Source: Armatimonadota bacterium (GTDB taxonomy: Bacteria > Armatimonadota > Fimbriimonadia > Fimbriimonadales > Fimbriimonadaceae). Taken from it: 64,000 bases of DNA. Below, piece after piece: positions 3,466-30,972 of the stretch; positions within the stretch are counted from its first letter, which is position 1; each line of letters starts with the position of its first letter. Where the stretch lies: the NCBI GenBank assembly GCA_016125185.1, contig WGMG01000002.1, positions 372,001 to 436,000 of the forward strand. The letters are read 5' to 3'. Below the pieces are notes generated by a model. It made no database searches. It was not told where the DNA came from and saw only the letters and a list, made by a program, of their open reading frames with translations. The position numbers were made by a program, and so were the translations under genes.

Positions 3466-4553
3466 TGGGATTTCGGCCAGGACAATTCGATCGATCGCGG
3501 ACGGGCGTGCTCCGCTCGTTTTGTCCGGCCCACGCCGTTGCGTCCCTGCCCGAAATCAGCCTCGACCAGCTTCGATCCGAAGGCAAAATGCTCATTCTTT
3601 TGGATGTGGACCACACACTTGTAAAGTGGAAGCAAGAGGAATTCTCTCCCGAAGTCTTGGCCTGGGTGGCCAAAGCCAAAGAAATGGGCTTCCACCTCTG
3701 CATCCTCAGCAATACCCGCCACCCGGAGCGCCTCGGAAGACTCGCCGAGAAGCTCGGTATCGAAACATTCCGCGGGAGATTTAAGCCCAGCACCCACATG
3801 TACGAGATGGCGCTGGAGCACTTCGGCGAGAAACCGGAAAACGCGGTGATGATCGGCGACCAAATCATGACCGACGTCCTCGGCGCAAACCGAAGCGGAA
3901 TCGACGCGATCTGGGTCCAGAAGATGGAGGGACCGGAGTTCATCGGCACCAAGTTCAATCGAATGATGGAACTTTTGGTCACGAGTTTGCTTTATCGTTC
4001 CTTGGTGACTCCTTCCGACGCTATCGATACCAATCCCAATGTGCCACTGTTGGAGCGGACCATTGTCAAACAGATCCTCAAATTCTGCTTCGTTGGCGGC
4101 ATTTCGTTTGTCATCGATTTGGGAATCCGATTCCTGCTGATGAACGTGATTCGTCTGAATGGCGATCTCCTCAGCGACGAGGTCGGTCGGTCGCTCACCA
4201 GCCGATTTCCAACCATTTTCCAGTTCGCGTCGGGTCCAGACAAAGCCTTCTACCCGATCGCCGTTTTCATTGCCGCCTCGGTCGCGATGTTCAACTCGTT
4301 CGCCCTCAACCGCTCGTTCACGTTTCGGGTGCAAGGCAATGAGGGCAAGGGCGGGCAACTGGCCCGAGTCTACGTCGTCGGCTACATCGGCATGGCTCTG
4401 AACATCCTCATCTCCTCGGGCCTTTACAACATCATCCCGGGACACCGCAAGATCAGTCTTGTTGTCAGCGCCGTATGCGCCGCCTTCATAGTTGCGGCCT
4501 GGAACTTTGTTGGCCAGCGATACTTCGCGTTCCGCGTCCACAAGAGCGAATGA
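3465..4553 (+). CDS. Fusion: YqeG-type HAD phosphatase + GtrA-like membrane domain
   Basis: A 362-residue two-domain protein. Residues about 35-175 are a HAD-superfamily IIIA phosphatase of the YqeG type, with motif I DVDHTLV (47-53), motif II LSNT (81-84) and motif III-IV GDQIMTD (131-137). Residues about 200-360 have four membrane helices and the GtrA/DPMS-like signatures SFALNRSFTFR and WNFVGQRYFAFR. YqeG homologues dephosphorylate lipid phosphates such as phosphatidylglycerophosphate; GtrA proteins are linked to polyprenyl-linked sugar flipping. The reading frame is continuous with no sign of frameshift. A role in lipid or lipid-carrier phosphate metabolism is inference. It overlaps mltG by 1 bp and aroE by 4 bp. 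Confidence 0.85.
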   Translation: MGFRPGQFDRSRTGVLRSFCPAHAVASLPEISLDQLRSEGKMLILLDVDHTLVKWKQEEFSPEVLAWVAKAKEMGFHLCILSNTRHPERLGRLAEKLGIETFRGRFKPSTHMYEMALEHFGEKPENAVMIGDQIMTDVLGANRSGIDAIWVQKMEGPEFIGTKFNRMMELLVTSLLYRSLVTPSDAIDTNPNVPLLERTIVKQILKFCFVGGISFVIDLGIRFLLMNVIRLNGDLLSDEVGRSLTSRFPTIFQFASGPDKAFYPIAVFIAASVAMFNSFALNRSFTFRVQGNEGKGGQLARVYVVGYIGMALNILISSGLYNIIPGHRKISLVVSAVCAAFIVAAWNFVGQRYFAFRVHKSE

Positions 4554-22587: not shown

Positions 22588-24174
22588 TCACGCGATGAAC
22601 TGACTGATCACCTGCGGAACCGACGTATCGAATCCCACGATGTTAAGCGTCCCCGCATCGCCCGGGTTCCCGATGCTCACTCTCGTCGAAGCCATAGCCA
22701 CCACGATCAGCTTCGCATCGATCCCCGTCTTTCGGCGGTAAGCCTCGATCGCTTGGGCCGGATGTTGAGATCCCTGCCACGTCTCCGAGTCCGTGTAGAT
22801 CACGAACGCGTCGACCGCGATCTTGTGCTCCATTGCATACTGGATCGGAAGCGCACAGTCGGTCCCTCCTCCACCTGTCTTGGCGAGCAAGTCCACGACT
22901 GCATCCAATCGCATTTTTTGCGAAATGTTCAATTTGTACGATTTGGTATCGAAGGCCACGTGCGTTACGTGGTCTTCAACCGCCTCGGTGATCAACGCCA
23001 TCGCTCCACACGCCTTTCGGCAGTCGAGCCCGGCGACGCCCGCAACCGAAGTTCCGCGCATCGATCCCGAAACGTCCAATCCGACGAGGATCCGCTTTCC
23101 AGATTTCTCGACGTTTCCGAACGAAGTGTAGAACGCCTTGTCCAGAGCCGTCAGGACTTCCTTCACCGCCTTCCACGTTCCGCCTCCTCGGACGCCATGC
23201 CCACCCGCATAGGTGTTCATCGCCGCCAAGATCGCCACCGGGTGGATTCGCGACTTCTTCAGTCGCTCCTCGTTCCCAAGGGCCTCGACGACCGTCCGAG
23301 TGGCCGACTTATCCTTCACGAACCATCCTTCCTCCAGCAACCCGACCTTCGTCATGTTGCCCAAGTTTCGGATCATCGCCGTGAGCGGCATATCGGCCAG
23401 CAATGCCTGCCAGATCGCCTTTTCTTTCAGCATCTCGGTCGGCAAAGCCTCTCGCGGCACACGGTGCTCGCGGACCAATCGAACCGCTTCGTCCAAGTCG
23501 TGTGTTTCGCGCAGAGTCAATGTCGCCTGCACGAGCGGCAGTTCGCCGGTGATCTCCCCGTCAACGATCCACTTGTAAAGCACGTTGTGCTTCTCAGTGC
23601 TCGCCACCGGGTGCGAGAGCCTCAAAAGGTCTCGGTTCGACCATCCGCCGCGCGCTTGGTACTTCACCACGCCGTACTCAAGCGAGTCCGCCGATTGCGC
23701 GTTGTACCACTTCGCGACCGCCTTTCGGAGTCCACGTCCCCATCCTCGCATCCCGTCGCAAGCTTCGGCAAACGCGAAGAGGTGGGTTCCGGTTCGGCAA
23801 ACCTTCGGCAAAGCGTCGAACGCGGCCGCACGAGTCTTATCGTTTCCGAACGACGCCGCCAATGCCAGAGCAAAGATCGCCGGATCGTTCTTCGGTGCGT
23901 TTCCGCCGTGGCTAACCTCGGCGATGCGCGCAACGACTCGTTCTCCGTCTTCCTTGATCGCTTCGAGGACGTTGGCCGCGTTCTCCATCATCAGCTTTCG
24001 CTCACCGACGTAAAACGTTCCGTTCTCGCATCCCAGGATCAAAAACCGATCAAGCAAGGTCCATCGATCGACGTTCCAAGAGTAGCCGCCGGCATGGTTC
24101 GCGACTTGGCTCGTAAACGGGATCGCCCTCGACTGGTGGGTCGATTTGGCGTTGAACAACTTGCTGTATTTCAT
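22588..24174 (-). CDS. rsr: Bacterial Ro60 orthologue (TROVE + VWA domain RNA-binding protein, Rsr)
   Basis: A 528-residue ring-shaped RNA-binding protein. Residues about 15-350 form the TROVE HEAT-like ring (VGERKLMMENAANVL, FALALAASFG, GWGRGLRKAVAKWY, MPLTAMIRNLGNMTK are typical). Residues about 360-528 are a von Willebrand A domain with an intact MIDAS: DVSGSM (Asp 367, Ser 369, Ser 371), Thr/Asp in GGGGTD (about 438) and TDSETW (Asp 462). Bacterial Ro60 binds Y RNAs and, with them, a nuclease such as PNPase, and acts in rRNA maturation and decay under stress. AGGAG stands 8-12 bp before the ATG. The seven Y-RNA-like elements immediately upstream run on the same strand, which strongly supports the call. 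Confidence 0.95.
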   Translation of the reverse strand: MKYSKLFNAKSTHQSRAIPFTSQVANHAGGYSWNVDRWTLLDRFLILGCENGTFYVGERKLMMENAANVLEAIKEDGERVVARIAEVSHGGNAPKNDPAIFALALAASFGNDKTRAAAFDALPKVCRTGTHLFAFAEACDGMRGWGRGLRKAVAKWYNAQSADSLEYGVVKYQARGGWSNRDLLRLSHPVASTEKHNVLYKWIVDGEITGELPLVQATLTLRETHDLDEAVRLVREHRVPREALPTEMLKEKAIWQALLADMPLTAMIRNLGNMTKVGLLEEGWFVKDKSATRTVVEALGNEERLKKSRIHPVAILAAMNTYAGGHGVRGGGTWKAVKEVLTALDKAFYTSFGNVEKSGKRILVGLDVSGSMRGTSVAGVAGLDCRKACGAMALITEAVEDHVTHVAFDTKSYKLNISQKMRLDAVVDLLAKTGGGGTDCALPIQYAMEHKIAVDAFVIYTDSETWQGSQHPAQAIEAYRRKTGIDAKLIVVAMASTRVSIGNPGDAGTLNIVGFDTSVPQVISQFIA

Positions 24175-24213
24175 TTTCTTTTTTTCTCCTAGATCATTTG
24201 TTTCTTGTTTCTT

Positions 24214-24322
24214 CTGCGGGCAAAGTCGGTGTGGTCAAGTCAAGGGATCGCTCCCAAGACCGCTGGATTTGAACCAGCCCGCTTTTTCAGCTAACCGATA
24301 AGCCACGTCCATCGGCCCGCAA
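24214..24322 (-). ncRNA. Y RNA-like element 7 (rsr-proximal): T-arm and capped stem, no D-arm
   Basis: About 109 nt, the last element before rsr (40 nt from its ATG). The closing stem is TTGCGGGC with GCCCGCAG. The conserved block GGGCCG, nine nt, GTGGCTTATCG follows. The upper stem GG..GTGG pairs with CCAC.CC. Inside is a canonical T-arm (GCTGG-TTCAAAT-CCAGC), then a stem GGTC-TT-GGGA capped by a GCGA tetraloop and closing TCCC-TT-GACT. No GTAGCTC D-arm is seen, so this is a reduced version of the permuted tRNA-like module. End points are set from the closing stem and are approximate. Confidence 0.75.
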
Positions 24323-24332
24323 ATCATATGTT

Positions 24333-24481
24333 GTTTGCCCTCGGGCAAAGGGGGAGGTTTGGTCTTCCCCGCCGTGCTCCAAACACCTCGATCCCGCAAG
24401 CGAGACCGGCCGGCCTTTCCGCCGAGGCGCTCCATGGTTTTGTGTAGTTGGATAACCCAAACCCATCGGCCCGAAGGCAAC
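24333..24481 (-). ncRNA. Y RNA-like element 6: degenerate effector module
   Basis: About 149 nt. The closing stem GTTGCCTTCGGGC pairs with GCCCGAGGGCAAAC (12-13 bp). The Y core GGGCCG, ATGGGTTTG, GGTTATCC is present and the upper stem GGGTTTGG pairs with CCAAACCT. The inner module has no TTCGAAT loop, but keeps the same order of hairpins: CGGC-GGAAAG-GCCG, then an 8-bp stem CGGTCTCG-CTTG-CGGGATCG, then GTG-TTTGGAG-CAC, a possible D-arm mimic with a GG in its loop. I read it as a diverged permuted tRNA-like fold; that part is inference. Confidence 0.65.
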
Positions 24482-24489
24482 TTGTTGAA

Positions 24490-24644
24490 CTCGGAAGAGT
24501 GTGGACAAAGAGCGCCGTAGATGTTTTAGATGCTCTAGCCACTGAGCTACAAGCAAGCCTTTCGGCAAGCAAGGGCGGATTCGAACCGCCGACCTTCCGC
24601 TTAGGATGCGATAACCTACTAGCAACGGCCCACACTCTTCCGAG
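24490..24644 (-). ncRNA. Y RNA-like element 5: full permuted tRNA-like module
   Basis: About 155 nt, closed by the longest stem of the array: 24490-24506 and 24628-24644 are complementary over 17 bp, with one G-U. Core: GGGCCG, TTGCTAGTA, GGTTATCG. Module order on the RNA is T-arm (GGCGG-TTCGAAT-CCGCC), capped acceptor-like hairpin (GCC-GAAA-GGC with flanking tandem U-U mismatches), then D-arm (TAGCTCAGTGGCTAGAGCA). Gene finders may call a tRNA here because of these arms, but their order is circularly permuted and there is no free 3' acceptor end. Confidence 0.82.
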
Positions 24645-24650
24645 GTCAAA

Positions 24651-24784
24651 GTACGGGCAAGAGAATGCCGTGGATAGATGCTCTAGCCAATTGAGCTACA
24701 CGCTAGCCAATTGGTTAGCGTGGATGGATTCGAACCACCAACCCTCCGCGTGATAGGCGATAACCCACATGCTTCGGCCCGTAC
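24651..24784 (-). ncRNA. Y RNA-like element 4: full permuted tRNA-like module
   Basis: About 134 nt. The closing stem GTACGGGC pairs perfectly with GCCCGTAC. The core GGGCCGAAGCATGTGGGTTATCG-like block (given in parts: GGGCCG, AAGCATGTG, GGTTATCG) is very close to the vertebrate Y1 pattern GGUCCGAAGG...GUUAUC. The upper stem GC(A)TGTGG pairs with CCACGGC. The module is T-arm GGTGG-TTCGAAT-CCATC, capped acceptor ACGCTA...TAGCGT with an AATT loop, and D-arm GTAGCTCAATTGGCTAGAGCA. Confidence 0.85.
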
Positions 24785-24798
24785 AAGTTGTTGTCGAA

Positions 24799-24931
24799 GT
24801 ACAGGCAAAAGGGGGGGCGCTGGATGTGTCAATTGCTCTACCTGGCTGAGCTACCCGCCAACCGAAGTTGGCGGGGCCGGATTCGAACCGGCGTCCTTTT
24901 GTTCCGATAACCCAACAGCATCGGCCCGTAC
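24799..24931 (-). ncRNA. Y RNA-like element 3: full permuted tRNA-like module with UUCG cap
   Basis: About 133 nt and the clearest member. The closing stem is GTACGGGC with GCCTGTAC. Core: GGGCCG, ATGCTGTTG, GGTTATCG. The module is T-arm GCCGG-TTCGAAT-CCGGC, then a perfect 9-bp acceptor stem CCCGCCAAC/GTTGGCGGG closed by a TTCG tetraloop where a tRNA would have its free ends, then D-arm GCTC-AGCCAGGTA-GAGC. The Y stem takes the place of the anticodon stem. This is the topology known for YrlA-type bacterial Y RNAs. Confidence 0.88.
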
Positions 24932-24947
24932 ATAAATTGTCGTCGTA

Positions 24948-25010
24948 TGCAGGCAAGTCTCGTCCGGCCTGGGAGATTTACAGTCGGTAACCCAAGCCTT
25001 CCGGCCCACA
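24948..25010 (-). ncRNA. Y RNA-like element 2: minimal form without tRNA-like module
   Basis: About 63 nt. The closing stem is TGTGGGC with GCCTGCA. Core: GGGCCG, GAAGGCTTG, GGTTACCG. The upper stem GGCTTGGG pairs with CCCAGGCC over 8 bp, and the loop contains a small TTAC-CGACT-GTAA hairpin. There is no T-arm or D-arm, so it would bind Ro60 without presenting a tRNA mimic. Confidence 0.75.
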
Positions 25011-25024
25011 AAAGGGGAGGCGAA

Positions 25025-25092
25025 GCGCAGACAAGAGTTCGGTTCTGGCGGTGTATCTACCCAAAAGATAAGCCAACACCAACGGCCCGCGC
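25025..25092 (-). ncRNA. Y RNA-like element 1 (promoter-proximal): minimal form
   Basis: About 68 nt, first in the array. The closing stem GCGCGGGC pairs with GTCTGCGC (8 bp with two G-U). Core: GGGCCG, TTGGTGTTG, GCTTATCT. The upper stem GGTGTTGG pairs with CCAGAACC (7 of 8), and the loop holds TATCT-TTTGGGT-AGATA. No tRNA-like module. A further hairpin (25110-25134) lies just upstream and has no Y core. Confidence 0.72.
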
Positions 25093-25240
25093 ATCAAAAC
25101 TGGTTCTGGGAAGAAGGCAAAAACGGCCTACTTCGCGACGTCGATCAAATGTTTTTCGTGCTGGGAGTCGACTCAACCTGTCACGAATTGATCTCGACGT
25201 CAGCACCCTCGTGTAAAGGGACTCATTTGCAAGAAAGGAT

Positions 25241-25268
25241 TGTTTACGATGACGAATTTCCTTGTCAA
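25241..25268 (-). promoter_or_regulatory. Candidate promoter of the Y RNA-rsr unit
   Basis: On the minus strand a perfect TTGACA (25268-25263) is followed 16 bp later by TAAACA (25246-25241), about 150 nt before the first Y element. The -10 is weak. The stretch 25093-25500 holds this, the 25110-25134 hairpin and the divergent promoter of the next gene; I see no further gene in it. Confidence 0.4.
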
Positions 25269-28668: not shown

Positions 28669-30972
28669 TTAGCGTCGCTTTCGGAACTTTGCGTCAGGAT
28701 CGCCCGATCCACCGCCATCTCGGCGCGGACCTCGGTCTCGATCTCGATCTCCGCCACGGCCACCGCCGTCGCGTCGAGGACCACGATCTCGGCCACCGCC
28801 ACCTCGTCGTCCGCCGCCATCGTCGCCGCCACCGGTAGAAGCCGGAGGAACTCCGTCCTCATTGCCTTCCAGGGTCGGCAGATCCTGCTTCACGCCGATC
28901 GCCGTCAGGTTCAGTCGGCCCATGGCGTCAAGCTCGAACGTCTTCACGTTCAGCGTGTCGCCCATGTTCACGACCTCTTCGATTCGGCCAATCGGCTTCA
29001 GGGTGATGTGCTCCTTCGGAACAAAGCCTTGCTTGCCGTTGCTCAGTTCAACCAGCACGCCGCGACCCATGATTCGGGTCACAACGCCGGTGAATTCCGT
29101 ACCCATTTCGACGTCGCCGACGGCATCCTTCACCATCGCGATCGCCACTCGGGCTTGCTCGCCGCCGCTGGAACCGATCAACACCCTGCCATCCTGCTGA
29201 ACGTCGATCGAAGCGCCGGATTCGGCCGTGATCTTCTTGATCGTCGCGCCGCCCGGGCCGATCAGCGCACCGATCTTCTCGGGGTTGATCTGGATCGTCG
29301 TCACCTGCGGAGCCGTGTCAGCGACCGTGCTTCGCGGTTCGGAGATTTCGGCTTCGATGACATCGAGAATCTCGAGTCGAGCGTCGAGCGCCTGGTTAAG
29401 GGCTCGGGCCAGAACGTCGTCCGGAATACCGTCCAGCTTCGTGTCGAGCTGAAGAGCGGTGATACCGGCACGGGTACCCGCAACCTTGAAGTCCATGTCG
29501 CCGCAGAAGTCTTCCATGCCGATGATGTCGGTGAGGACCTTGAAGACCTTACCGTCGGACATCAAGCCCATCGCGATACCGGCGACCGGTGCCTTGATCT
29601 TGATACCGGCATCCATCAGCGCGAGGGTCGAACCGCAGACCGACGCCATCGACGTCGAACCGTTGGACTCCAGAACCTCGGAGATCAGCAGAAGCGTGTA
29701 CGGGAAGTTCGGATCATCGAGCGGGATCACCGATCGAAGCGCGCGCTCGGCAAGAGCGCCGTGACCGACTTCTCGTCGTCCCGGACCGCGCATCGGGCGG
29801 CACTCGCCAACCGAATACGCCGGGAAGTTGTAGAAGTGCATGTAGCGCTTCGGCTCTTCTTCCTCGATTCCGTCCATCGTCTGGGCATCACCCGGAAGGC
29901 CAAGGGTCGCAACCGTCATAACCTGGGTCTGACCGCGGGTAAACAGGCCCGAGCCGTGGACGCGAGGCAGAATTCCTGCGATTGCTTCCAGCGGACGAAT
30001 CTGCGTAAGCGATCGACCGTCCGGTCGCTTGTCCTTGCTGATGATCAGCTCTCGAACAACTCCCTTCACCACACCGTCGGCGGCTTCGGATAGCTGTCCT
30101 AGAATCTCCGGCTTGTCGGCGTATTCCGGCTTGAGCTTCTCGACGATCTCCTTAATGAGGTCGTTGAGCGCGCTTTCTCGAACGGCCTTGTCCTTGCTTC
30201 CAAGGAGAGCCTTCTCGATGTCCTTGCCGTACTTCTTTGAGATATTCTTCTTCAGGTCCTCGTCGATGACGAACAGCTTGACGTCTCGCTTTGGCTTGTT
30301 GACCAACTTGGCGAACTCTTCAAACTTCTCTGCGATCTGCTGAATAGCCTCGTGGCCAAACTTCAGCGCCGCCGCCATATCTTCTTCGGAAACTTCACTC
30401 GCGCCGGCTTCGACCATCGAAATCGCGCCCTTGTGGCCCGCGACGATCAGGTCGAGGTCACTCGCTTTGATCTGGTCGTTAGACGGGAACAAAACGAACT
30501 CACCGTCGATGCGTCCAACTCGAACGCAGGCGATAGGAGCCTTGAACGGAAGGTCACTCACCGCGATTGCCGCGCCAGCGGCACAAACCGCGAGCACGTC
30601 CGGTGGGCAATCCTGCTCCACCGCAAACGGCATGGCGATAACCTGGACGTCGTTGCGAAGGCCCTTCGGGAACAGCGGGCGAATTGGGCGGTCCATCAGT
30701 CGGCTGACGAGGACGGCCTTTTCACTCGGTCGTCCGCCGCGCTTCATAAATCCGCCGGGAATCTTTCCGACGGCGTACTTTCGCTCTTCGTAGTCGCAGG
30801 TGAGGGGAAGGAAGTCGATTCCATCGCGCGGATTTTCGGACATAGTCGCGACACCGAGGACGATGGTTTCACCCATTCCAAGCAAAACAGCGCCGCCAGC
30901 TTGCTTGGCGACGCGACCGGTTTCGAGGTAGAACTCTTTTCCACCTACCTCGAATTCTAAGGTTTGTATCAT
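28669..30972 (-). CDS. pnp: Polyribonucleotide nucleotidyltransferase (PNPase) with RGG-type tail
   Basis: A 767-residue trimeric 3'-5' phosphorolytic exoribonuclease. Two RNase PH domains are present (first with RPIRPLFPKG and DGIDFLPL; second, catalytic, with FYNFPAYSVGE, GRREVGHGALAERAL and the Asp-containing GDMDFKVAGT). A KH domain follows (IGALIGPGGATIKKI, about 555-610), then an S1 domain (FTGVVTRIMGRGVLVELSNG, quoted in part; about 620-690). The last ~60 residues are an Arg/Gly/Asp-rich tail (GGRDRGPRRDGGG repeated) that is not standard and should bind RNA. PNPase is the known partner of Ro60-Y RNA in Deinococcus; rsr lies 4.5 kb away. Cotranscribed with rpsO, 16 bp apart. Confidence 0.96.
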   Translation of the reverse strand: MIQTLEFEVGGKEFYLETGRVAKQAGGAVLLGMGETIVLGVATMSENPRDGIDFLPLTCDYEERKYAVGKIPGGFMKRGGRPSEKAVLVSRLMDRPIRPLFPKGLRNDVQVIAMPFAVEQDCPPDVLAVCAAGAAIAVSDLPFKAPIACVRVGRIDGEFVLFPSNDQIKASDLDLIVAGHKGAISMVEAGASEVSEEDMAAALKFGHEAIQQIAEKFEEFAKLVNKPKRDVKLFVIDEDLKKNISKKYGKDIEKALLGSKDKAVRESALNDLIKEIVEKLKPEYADKPEILGQLSEAADGVVKGVVRELIISKDKRPDGRSLTQIRPLEAIAGILPRVHGSGLFTRGQTQVMTVATLGLPGDAQTMDGIEEEEPKRYMHFYNFPAYSVGECRPMRGPGRREVGHGALAERALRSVIPLDDPNFPYTLLLISEVLESNGSTSMASVCGSTLALMDAGIKIKAPVAGIAMGLMSDGKVFKVLTDIIGMEDFCGDMDFKVAGTRAGITALQLDTKLDGIPDDVLARALNQALDARLEILDVIEAEISEPRSTVADTAPQVTTIQINPEKIGALIGPGGATIKKITAESGASIDVQQDGRVLIGSSGGEQARVAIAMVKDAVGDVEMGTEFTGVVTRIMGRGVLVELSNGKQGFVPKEHITLKPIGRIEEVVNMGDTLNVKTFELDAMGRLNLTAIGVKQDLPTLEGNEDGVPPASTGGGDDGGGRRGGGGRDRGPRRDGGGRGGDRDRDRGPRRDGGGSGDPDAKFRKRR

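Follow-up and report, generated by a model that had tools for sequence, protein, structure and literature searches.

A Ro60 locus with seven head-to-tail Y RNA genes, three of them predicted to carry permuted tRNA mimics

The Ro60 gene and its array of Y RNA elements

The window, the whole stretch of 64,000 nucleotides analysed here, comes from an Armatimonadota bacterium of the family Fimbriimonadaceae. It contains a Ro60/Rsr gene whose product matches Ro60 (E 7.6e-111) and Rsr (E 1.4e-106) in the PDB, its best solved relatives being animal Ro60 and bacterial Rsr. Seven Y RNA elements lie in tandem immediately upstream of this gene, on the same strand. The array (24212-25094, minus strand) is larger than the feature at 24490-24931 described in the initial annotation; elements 3, 4 and 5 together cover 24497-24933 (minus strand). 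The main features of the locus are:

22588-24174, minus strand: Ro60/Rsr gene with TROVE and Ro60 vWA domains (Pfam), directly downstream of the array
24212-24324, minus strand: element 7, D-arm-less Y RNA that has a T-arm and a capped hairpin
24337-24478, minus strand: element 6, Y RNA whose module is conserved but not tRNA-like (nine relatives)
24497-24637, minus strand: element 5, Y RNA with a predicted four-arm permuted tRNA module (RF02553; alignment)
24649-24786, minus strand: element 4, Y RNA with a predicted four-arm permuted tRNA module, anticodon arm kept (RF02553; 31-pair covarying structure)
24797-24933, minus strand: element 3, YrlA-type Y RNA of canonical topology without an anticodon arm (RF02553, Y motif, minimum-energy fold)
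24945-25013, minus strand: element 2, compact Y RNA (Y motif, fold, alignment)
25023-25094, minus strand: element 1, compact Y RNA without T- and D-arms (Y motif, alignment)
25239-25268, minus strand: weakly supported promoter-like site, TTGACA-18-AACAAT, preceding all seven elements
28669-30972, minus strand: PNPase gene (pnp) with KH and S1 domains; rpsO lies upstream of it

What makes these elements Y RNAs? They adjoin Ro60 on its own strand, and all seven share a terminal stem with a conserved motif. Each opens with a 22-nt Ro60-site motif, GGGCCGANGNNNNUGGGUUAUC, in slightly varying form (positions 25088, 25007, 24927, 24780, 24631, 24472 and 24318), and ends at its 3' side in (A)CUUG(C/U)C or a near variant, which closes the terminal stem. 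The lower stem with the Ro60 site, GGGCCGANG....UGGGUUAUC / ACUUGCC, carries an upper module that differs from element to element. The best Rfam matches of the array are RF02553 and the nematode Y-like family RF01656. Animal Y RNAs and the nematode stem-bulge RNAs (RF01656) resemble the array in the lower stem, with GG(U/G)CCGA...GGGUUAUC and AACUUG(A/C)CC, but the animal RNAs have no tRNA-like module, whereas the upper part is tRNA-like here.

The spacers between elements 3, 4 and 5 measure about 10 nt, and the promoter-like site upstream of element 1 is the sole one of its kind, although one such site was found where 0.9 would be expected by chance. Because the spacers are short and the only promoter-like site precedes element 1, a common precursor is likely, and the seven genes are probably transcribed together. 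A long hairpin (GACGUCGAGAUCAA.../...UUGAUCGACGUC) occupies the leader of the array at 25130-25205 (minus strand), just upstream of element 1. The pnp gene, 3.6 kb from the array, forms a separate transcription unit; an operon of the two was considered and rejected, as plus-strand genes lie in between.

The locus holds at least four Y RNA designs: compact, tRNA-type, with a non-tRNA module and without a D-arm. Compact element 1 has an anticodon-like hairpin on its own, UAUCU-UUUGGGU-AGAUA (25054-25070; 5-bp stem, 7-nt loop), which appears in the minimum-energy fold (z -2.6). Element 6 combines a GGAAAG-loop hairpin, a variable stem and a KURGA-loop hairpin; across nine arrays 15 of its 31 predicted pairs are altered on both sides, the module has no match in Rfam, and comparison points to a new covarying Y RNA module without tRNA likeness. 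Element 7, with its T-arm at 24262-24278 and capped hairpin at 24238-24261 (minus strand), has the look of a D-arm-less tRNA mimic. The order compact, tRNA-type, element-6-type, element-7-type, Ro60 is the same in six genomes (this one and G077-G081). Of the 85 family genomes 35 have Ro60, as do 55 of the 291 in the phylum; the named bearers are Fimbriimonas, Fimbriimonadaceae and 'Armatimonadetes bacterium Uphvl-Ar1'. Many of these Ro60 genes are preceded upstream by elements that share the 22-nt motif, between one and seven of them.

Permuted tRNA-like modules in elements 3 to 5

On the minus strand elements 3, 4 and 5 follow the order that the initial annotation had read from them: a T-arm, then the 3' acceptor strand, the cap and the 5' acceptor strand, and last the D-arm. 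In all three, U8-A9 stands just ahead of the D-arm. The parts are (all minus strand):

24876-24892, minus strand: element 3 T-arm
24854-24875, minus strand: element 3 capped acceptor stem, 9 bp plus UUCG
24835-24853, minus strand: element 3 U8-A9 and D-arm
24747-24759, minus strand: element 4 anticodon-arm-like hairpin CGC-CUAUCAC-GCG
24723-24739, minus strand: element 4 T-arm
24699-24722, minus strand: element 4 acceptor stem with cap, ACCAAUUGGC
24680-24698, minus strand: element 4 D-arm
24598-24610, minus strand: element 5 anticodon-arm-like hairpin CGC-AUCCUAA-GCG, also in the centroid fold
24574-24590, minus strand: element 5 T-arm
24550-24573, minus strand: element 5 capped acceptor stem, GAAA cap
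24532-24549, minus strand: element 5 D-arm

This is the layout of YrlA (Salmonella and others; RF02553, PDB 6CU1), a Ro60-linked RNA with a Ro60 stem and permuted D-, T- and capped acceptor arms (PMC8394870, PMC11472068), whose solved structure superposes on tRNA as a circular permutation (PMC11472068). RF02553 matches elements 3, 4 and 5 along the whole model, at 45.2 bits (E 1.6e-8), 41.6 bits (E 1.8e-7) and 25.3 bits (E 0.0094), respectively, aligning the anticodon-like arm of elements 4 and 5 as an insertion; RF01656 matches element 4 below threshold (25.3 bits, E 0.016). The curated cut-off of RF02553, 69 bits, is reached neither by these elements nor by any match in the 291 genomes of the phylum, which suggests that the cut-off is narrow rather than that the elements are foreign. 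Counting YrlA in the phylum by RF02553 matches was rejected, as many of them are adjacent real tRNAs. The sub-threshold matches at L068, L071 and L083, for instance, are pairs of adjacent tRNA genes, a trap for automatic YrlA counts.

Element 3 is the clearest case. Its acceptor is a perfect 9-bp stem (CCCGCCAAC/GTTGGCGGG) with a TTCG cap, just as first noted, and its minimum-energy fold contains this stem together with the T- and D-arms. The tetraloop cap proposed for all three acceptors holds only loosely for element 4, where seven perfect base pairs are followed by an A.C mismatch, CC/GG and AATT; because the mismatch interrupts the stem, AATT does not cap a continuous helix. The GAAA-capped stem of element 5 is badly mismatched (6 of 10 pairs, four U.U mismatches), a weak acceptor by the standard of YrlA; this poor pairing suggests that element 5 may be decaying. 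Element 4 also has ACCA at the place of the discriminator and CCA. Energy folding recovers the module well only in element 3, and the whole module is absent from the minimum-energy folds of elements 4 and 5, so that their modules rest on comparison and energy folding was rejected as proof.

The comparison drew on 80 Ro60 loci, including Chloroflexi, Myxococcota, Deltaproteobacteria, Trueperaceae, Gemmatimonadetes and others, and on three plasmid or phage loci, 83 in all. Scanning these for permuted T-acceptor-D modules turned up candidates in 44 of the 83, a few of them removed as coding sequence, and 69 non-redundant related modules from several phyla (27 from the family, 42 from other families and phyla) formed the comparison set. 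T-stem pairing is complete (345 of 345 cells). Pairing is kept in 439 of 483 acceptor cells (215 compensatory; shuffle mean 247 paired) and in 258 of 276 D-stem cells, counts for which, as for hairpin pairing, the sequences were partly picked for pairing, unlike the loop-size test and the slide control. A fixed-structure alignment of 15 four-arm RNAs of the family (31 pairs, 464 cells) pairs in 97.6% of cells, a figure that falls to 31-43% on sliding the 3' partners. Cells changed on both sides number 85, against 24 in shuffles and 12-20 after sliding. The outer stem of the alignment is 100% paired with double changes in four of eight pairs, and compensatory changes occur in every variable helix. 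Shuffles overstate the significance, because elements of related genomes share ancestry, which the 42 modules from independent phyla offset only in part. Searched with the model of the four-arm RNA, 22 genomes of the order yield strong matches over its full length (E <= 1.1e-9); every one of these genomes bears Ro60, and the 15 sequences that built the model are among the matches. Partial matches of this model were not taken as a count, since many such matches, too, are adjacent real tRNAs. One full-length match, G032:C5:515345-515497 (minus strand; E 6.9e-15), lies about 419 kb from one of the Ro60 genes of its genome, on the same contig, and is possibly an unlinked Y RNA.

Could these be ordinary tRNA genes, or the remains of some? 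ARAGORN reports no tRNA in the array, the elements have no cloverleaf with a 5-bp anticodon stem (their anticodon-like stems consist of three Watson-Crick pairs plus G.U), and the genome has a complete set of 46 tRNAs for all 20 amino acids, none of which stands out as a parent of elements 3-5; the initial view that these are not ordinary tRNAs is borne out. A decaying cluster of real tRNA genes would account for the tRNA-like T- and D-arms and for the mismatched acceptor of element 5, and some sub-threshold RF02553 matches elsewhere (L068, L071) are indeed adjacent real tRNAs. It is nevertheless scarcely credible in the face of the compensatory changes in all variable helices, the 22-nt motif in every element, the retention beside Ro60 across genera and phyla and the lack of a close parent tRNA. 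The stems of elements 3-5 differ yet covary, as would structures under selection, and the RF02553 matches, the permuted arms and the covariation of the 69 modules across phyla all uphold the YrlA-module topology. The locus is very probably a Ro60 (Rsr) ribonucleoprotein locus with seven head-to-tail Y RNA genes, of which elements 3-5 carry permuted tRNA mimics.

An anticodon-arm-like hairpin beside the Y stem

The initial annotation had also proposed a Y stem in place of the anticodon stem. This fits element 3, which has no anticodon-like hairpin and in which a long-range UUG/CAA (TTG/CAA) can pair across the Y stem as in canonical YrlA, a weak version of the stem 27-31/39-43 continuing into the Y stem. 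It does not fit elements 4 and 5, which, like most of their relatives in the family, have a hairpin beside the Y stem and in this depart from canonical YrlA. A search for canonical YrlA in E. coli gave no match, and Rhizobium plasmids supplied the reference; in the Rhizobium etli YrlA roughly a dozen bases separate CUAC from the T-stem, which leaves no room for an anticodon arm.

The majority of the family's tRNA-type elements have the hairpin after GGUUAU, with three pairs and a 7-nt loop. With a fixed register, three Watson-Crick pairs enclose a 7-nt loop in 26 of 77 family elements, against 0-9 for other loop sizes and offsets. At a tRNA-like distance from the T-arm the hairpin is found in 18 of the 27 family modules (2.3 expected from shuffles; other sizes 0-5) and in 20 of the 42 modules from independent families and phyla (3.7 expected; other sizes 1-11), a set that played no part in forming the idea. 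Seven nucleotides is by far the most enriched loop size. Stems are 3-4 bp long, and column 30-38 covaries in the 15-sequence alignment (CG 9, UA 3, AU 2, GC 1). Positions 33 and 37 are fixed while the triplet varies: 33 is U in 33 of 39 loops and 37 a purine in 34 of 39, with 34-36 free. Taken together, U33, a purine at 37 and a free triplet read as the signature of an anticodon loop whose shape would be kept without decoding any single codon. Several of the triplets begin with A34, which is rare in bacteria. No pattern emerged when the triplets were matched to tRNA type, except for a suggestive case in element 2 of locus L044 (Leu-like D-arm, AAG).

Does the hairpin simply belong to the Y stem, forming at its apex or side after GGUUAUC, with a role in Ro60 binding or a purely accidental likeness to an anticodon arm? 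Compact Y RNAs lack T- and D-arms, yet about half of them have a similar hairpin at a similar place (element 1 is one), and the hairpin and the Ro60 motif overlap in the conserved UUAUC. Against this stand the anticodon-loop signature just described, the tRNA-like distance to the T-arm and the occurrence outside the family, as in L145 with a perfect 5-bp hairpin, AUUGA-CUCUUAA-UCAAU. Moreover, a long-range anticodon stem of at least 4 bp is more frequent in elements without the hairpin (12 of 33) than in those with it (3 of 36). On balance we regard a mere Y-stem feature as unlikely.

An anticodon arm, the preferred reading of the hairpin, would give two topologies for the permuted modules. 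In elements 3-5 the acceptor ends would be joined by the cap and the molecule opened where the Y stem enters. Element 3, like known YrlA, would be opened inside the anticodon loop; in elements 4 and 5, apparently permuted tRNAs with all four arms, the opening would fall between positions 26 and 27, leaving a short anticodon arm as a hairpin of its own. The array differs from YrlA as known in this retained arm and in having three such RNAs among seven. Sequence and covariation show the linkage to Ro60 and, within the RNAs, the lower stem, the anticodon-like hairpin and the T-, D- and acceptor arms. Bacterial Y RNAs have been described as tRNA mimics without an anticodon arm, and many may in fact keep one. 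Going by Rfam, one canonical sequence and reviews, a Y RNA with an anticodon arm appears to be undescribed.

Mimics with further variations were seen in other loci. Two in Anaerolineae (L173 ~3369 and L203 ~8042) have an anticodon-like hairpin, a long variable arm and a D-arm of the Ser/Leu type (UGGCCGAGUGG...), apparently as class II tRNA mimics. Desulfonema magnum (L170) has three, at 4534, 4694 and 5097, with acceptor loops of 24-43 nt; two of these caps start with ACCA and resemble the spacer between two tRNA genes.

Possible origin and roles of the modules

The permuted tRNA genes of algae and Thermofilum likewise place the 3' half before the 5' half, joined at the acceptor end. Might elements 3-5 be genes of this kind, as in red algae, whose transcripts are circularised and cut at the acceptor end to yield working tRNAs? 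They share the permuted order, an anticodon arm is present, 6 of the 63 caps (that of element 4 and two from Desulfonema among them) have CCA at the tRNA-like place, and the genome encodes an RtcB ligase. The anticodon stems, mostly 3-4 bp, and the frequent A34 triplets argue otherwise, as do the caps, often stable tetraloops (UUCG, GNRA), the complete tRNA set of the genome, the linkage to Ro60 and the position of the T- and D-arms inside a conserved Ro60 stem. The junctions in Cyanidioschyzon fall at 20/21, 37/38, 50/51 or 59/60 (PMC3978253); the junction here would be 26/27. The algal genes become tRNAs; the present modules sit inside a Ro60 stem. A source of working tRNAs is highly improbable.

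For the mimics themselves, two adjacent tRNA genes are a plausible, if more weakly grounded, origin. The 3' half of one tRNA gene and the 5' half of the next have the same order as the module, and partial matches of the four-arm model fall on adjacent real tRNAs, such as tRNA-Asp/tRNA-Phe in the same genome.

What could such RNAs do? In Deinococcus the Y RNA serves Rsr both as a tether to PNPase and as a gate (PMC8394870, PMC4726728), and Salmonella YrlA is modified by DusA and TruB (Psi, D) (PMC8394870). The present locus resembles the Rsr-Y RNA-PNPase assembly of Deinococcus radiodurans (RYPER) in its Ro60 ortholog, its Y RNA and a PNPase in the genome; it differs in its many arrayed Y RNAs and in a pnp that is nearby but a separate unit. 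By analogy with the Deinococcus and Salmonella work, Ro60 would bind the lower stem, and the tRNA-like module could regulate access to Ro60 or dock a partner, e.g. PNPase or tRNA enzymes. An effector role as PNPase tether or gate is conceivable, possibly also as a nuclease decoy. Different modules would then give differently addressed Ro60 particles, and at least four designs in a fixed order suggest that Ro60 may be sent to different partners by swapping RNA modules.

If many Y RNAs keep an anticodon arm, the Ro60 particle could meet anticodon-reading enzymes, and the purpose of the tRNA-like module becomes testable. YrlA has been proposed to inhibit, or compete for, anticodon nuclease (PMC7790460), a task that would suit an RNA with an anticodon arm better than the armless YrlA. 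The fullest form of the idea, a rather unlikely one as it stands, is a widespread class of Y RNAs that amount to a complete four-arm tRNA from two neighbouring tRNA genes, joined up at the acceptor and open between the D- and anticodon arms. The anticodon arm would be functional and show a generic loop to tRNA-reading enzymes; tethered to Ro60, it might for instance act as a decoy for anticodon nucleases or as their sensor. Were it true, such a role would also explain why phages carry Ro60 and these RNAs. Phage Ro60 is common (354 records), and mycobacteriophage Sebata and Gordonia phage Cashline both have Y RNAs with the hairpin.

Among the mobile elements, two Pseudomonas plasmids (L208, L210) have compact Y-RNA-like repeats in a row downstream of rsr, with the pattern CGAAUGC...GGGACUACA...UUGUCG; in L208, rtcR lies on the opposite side of rsr.
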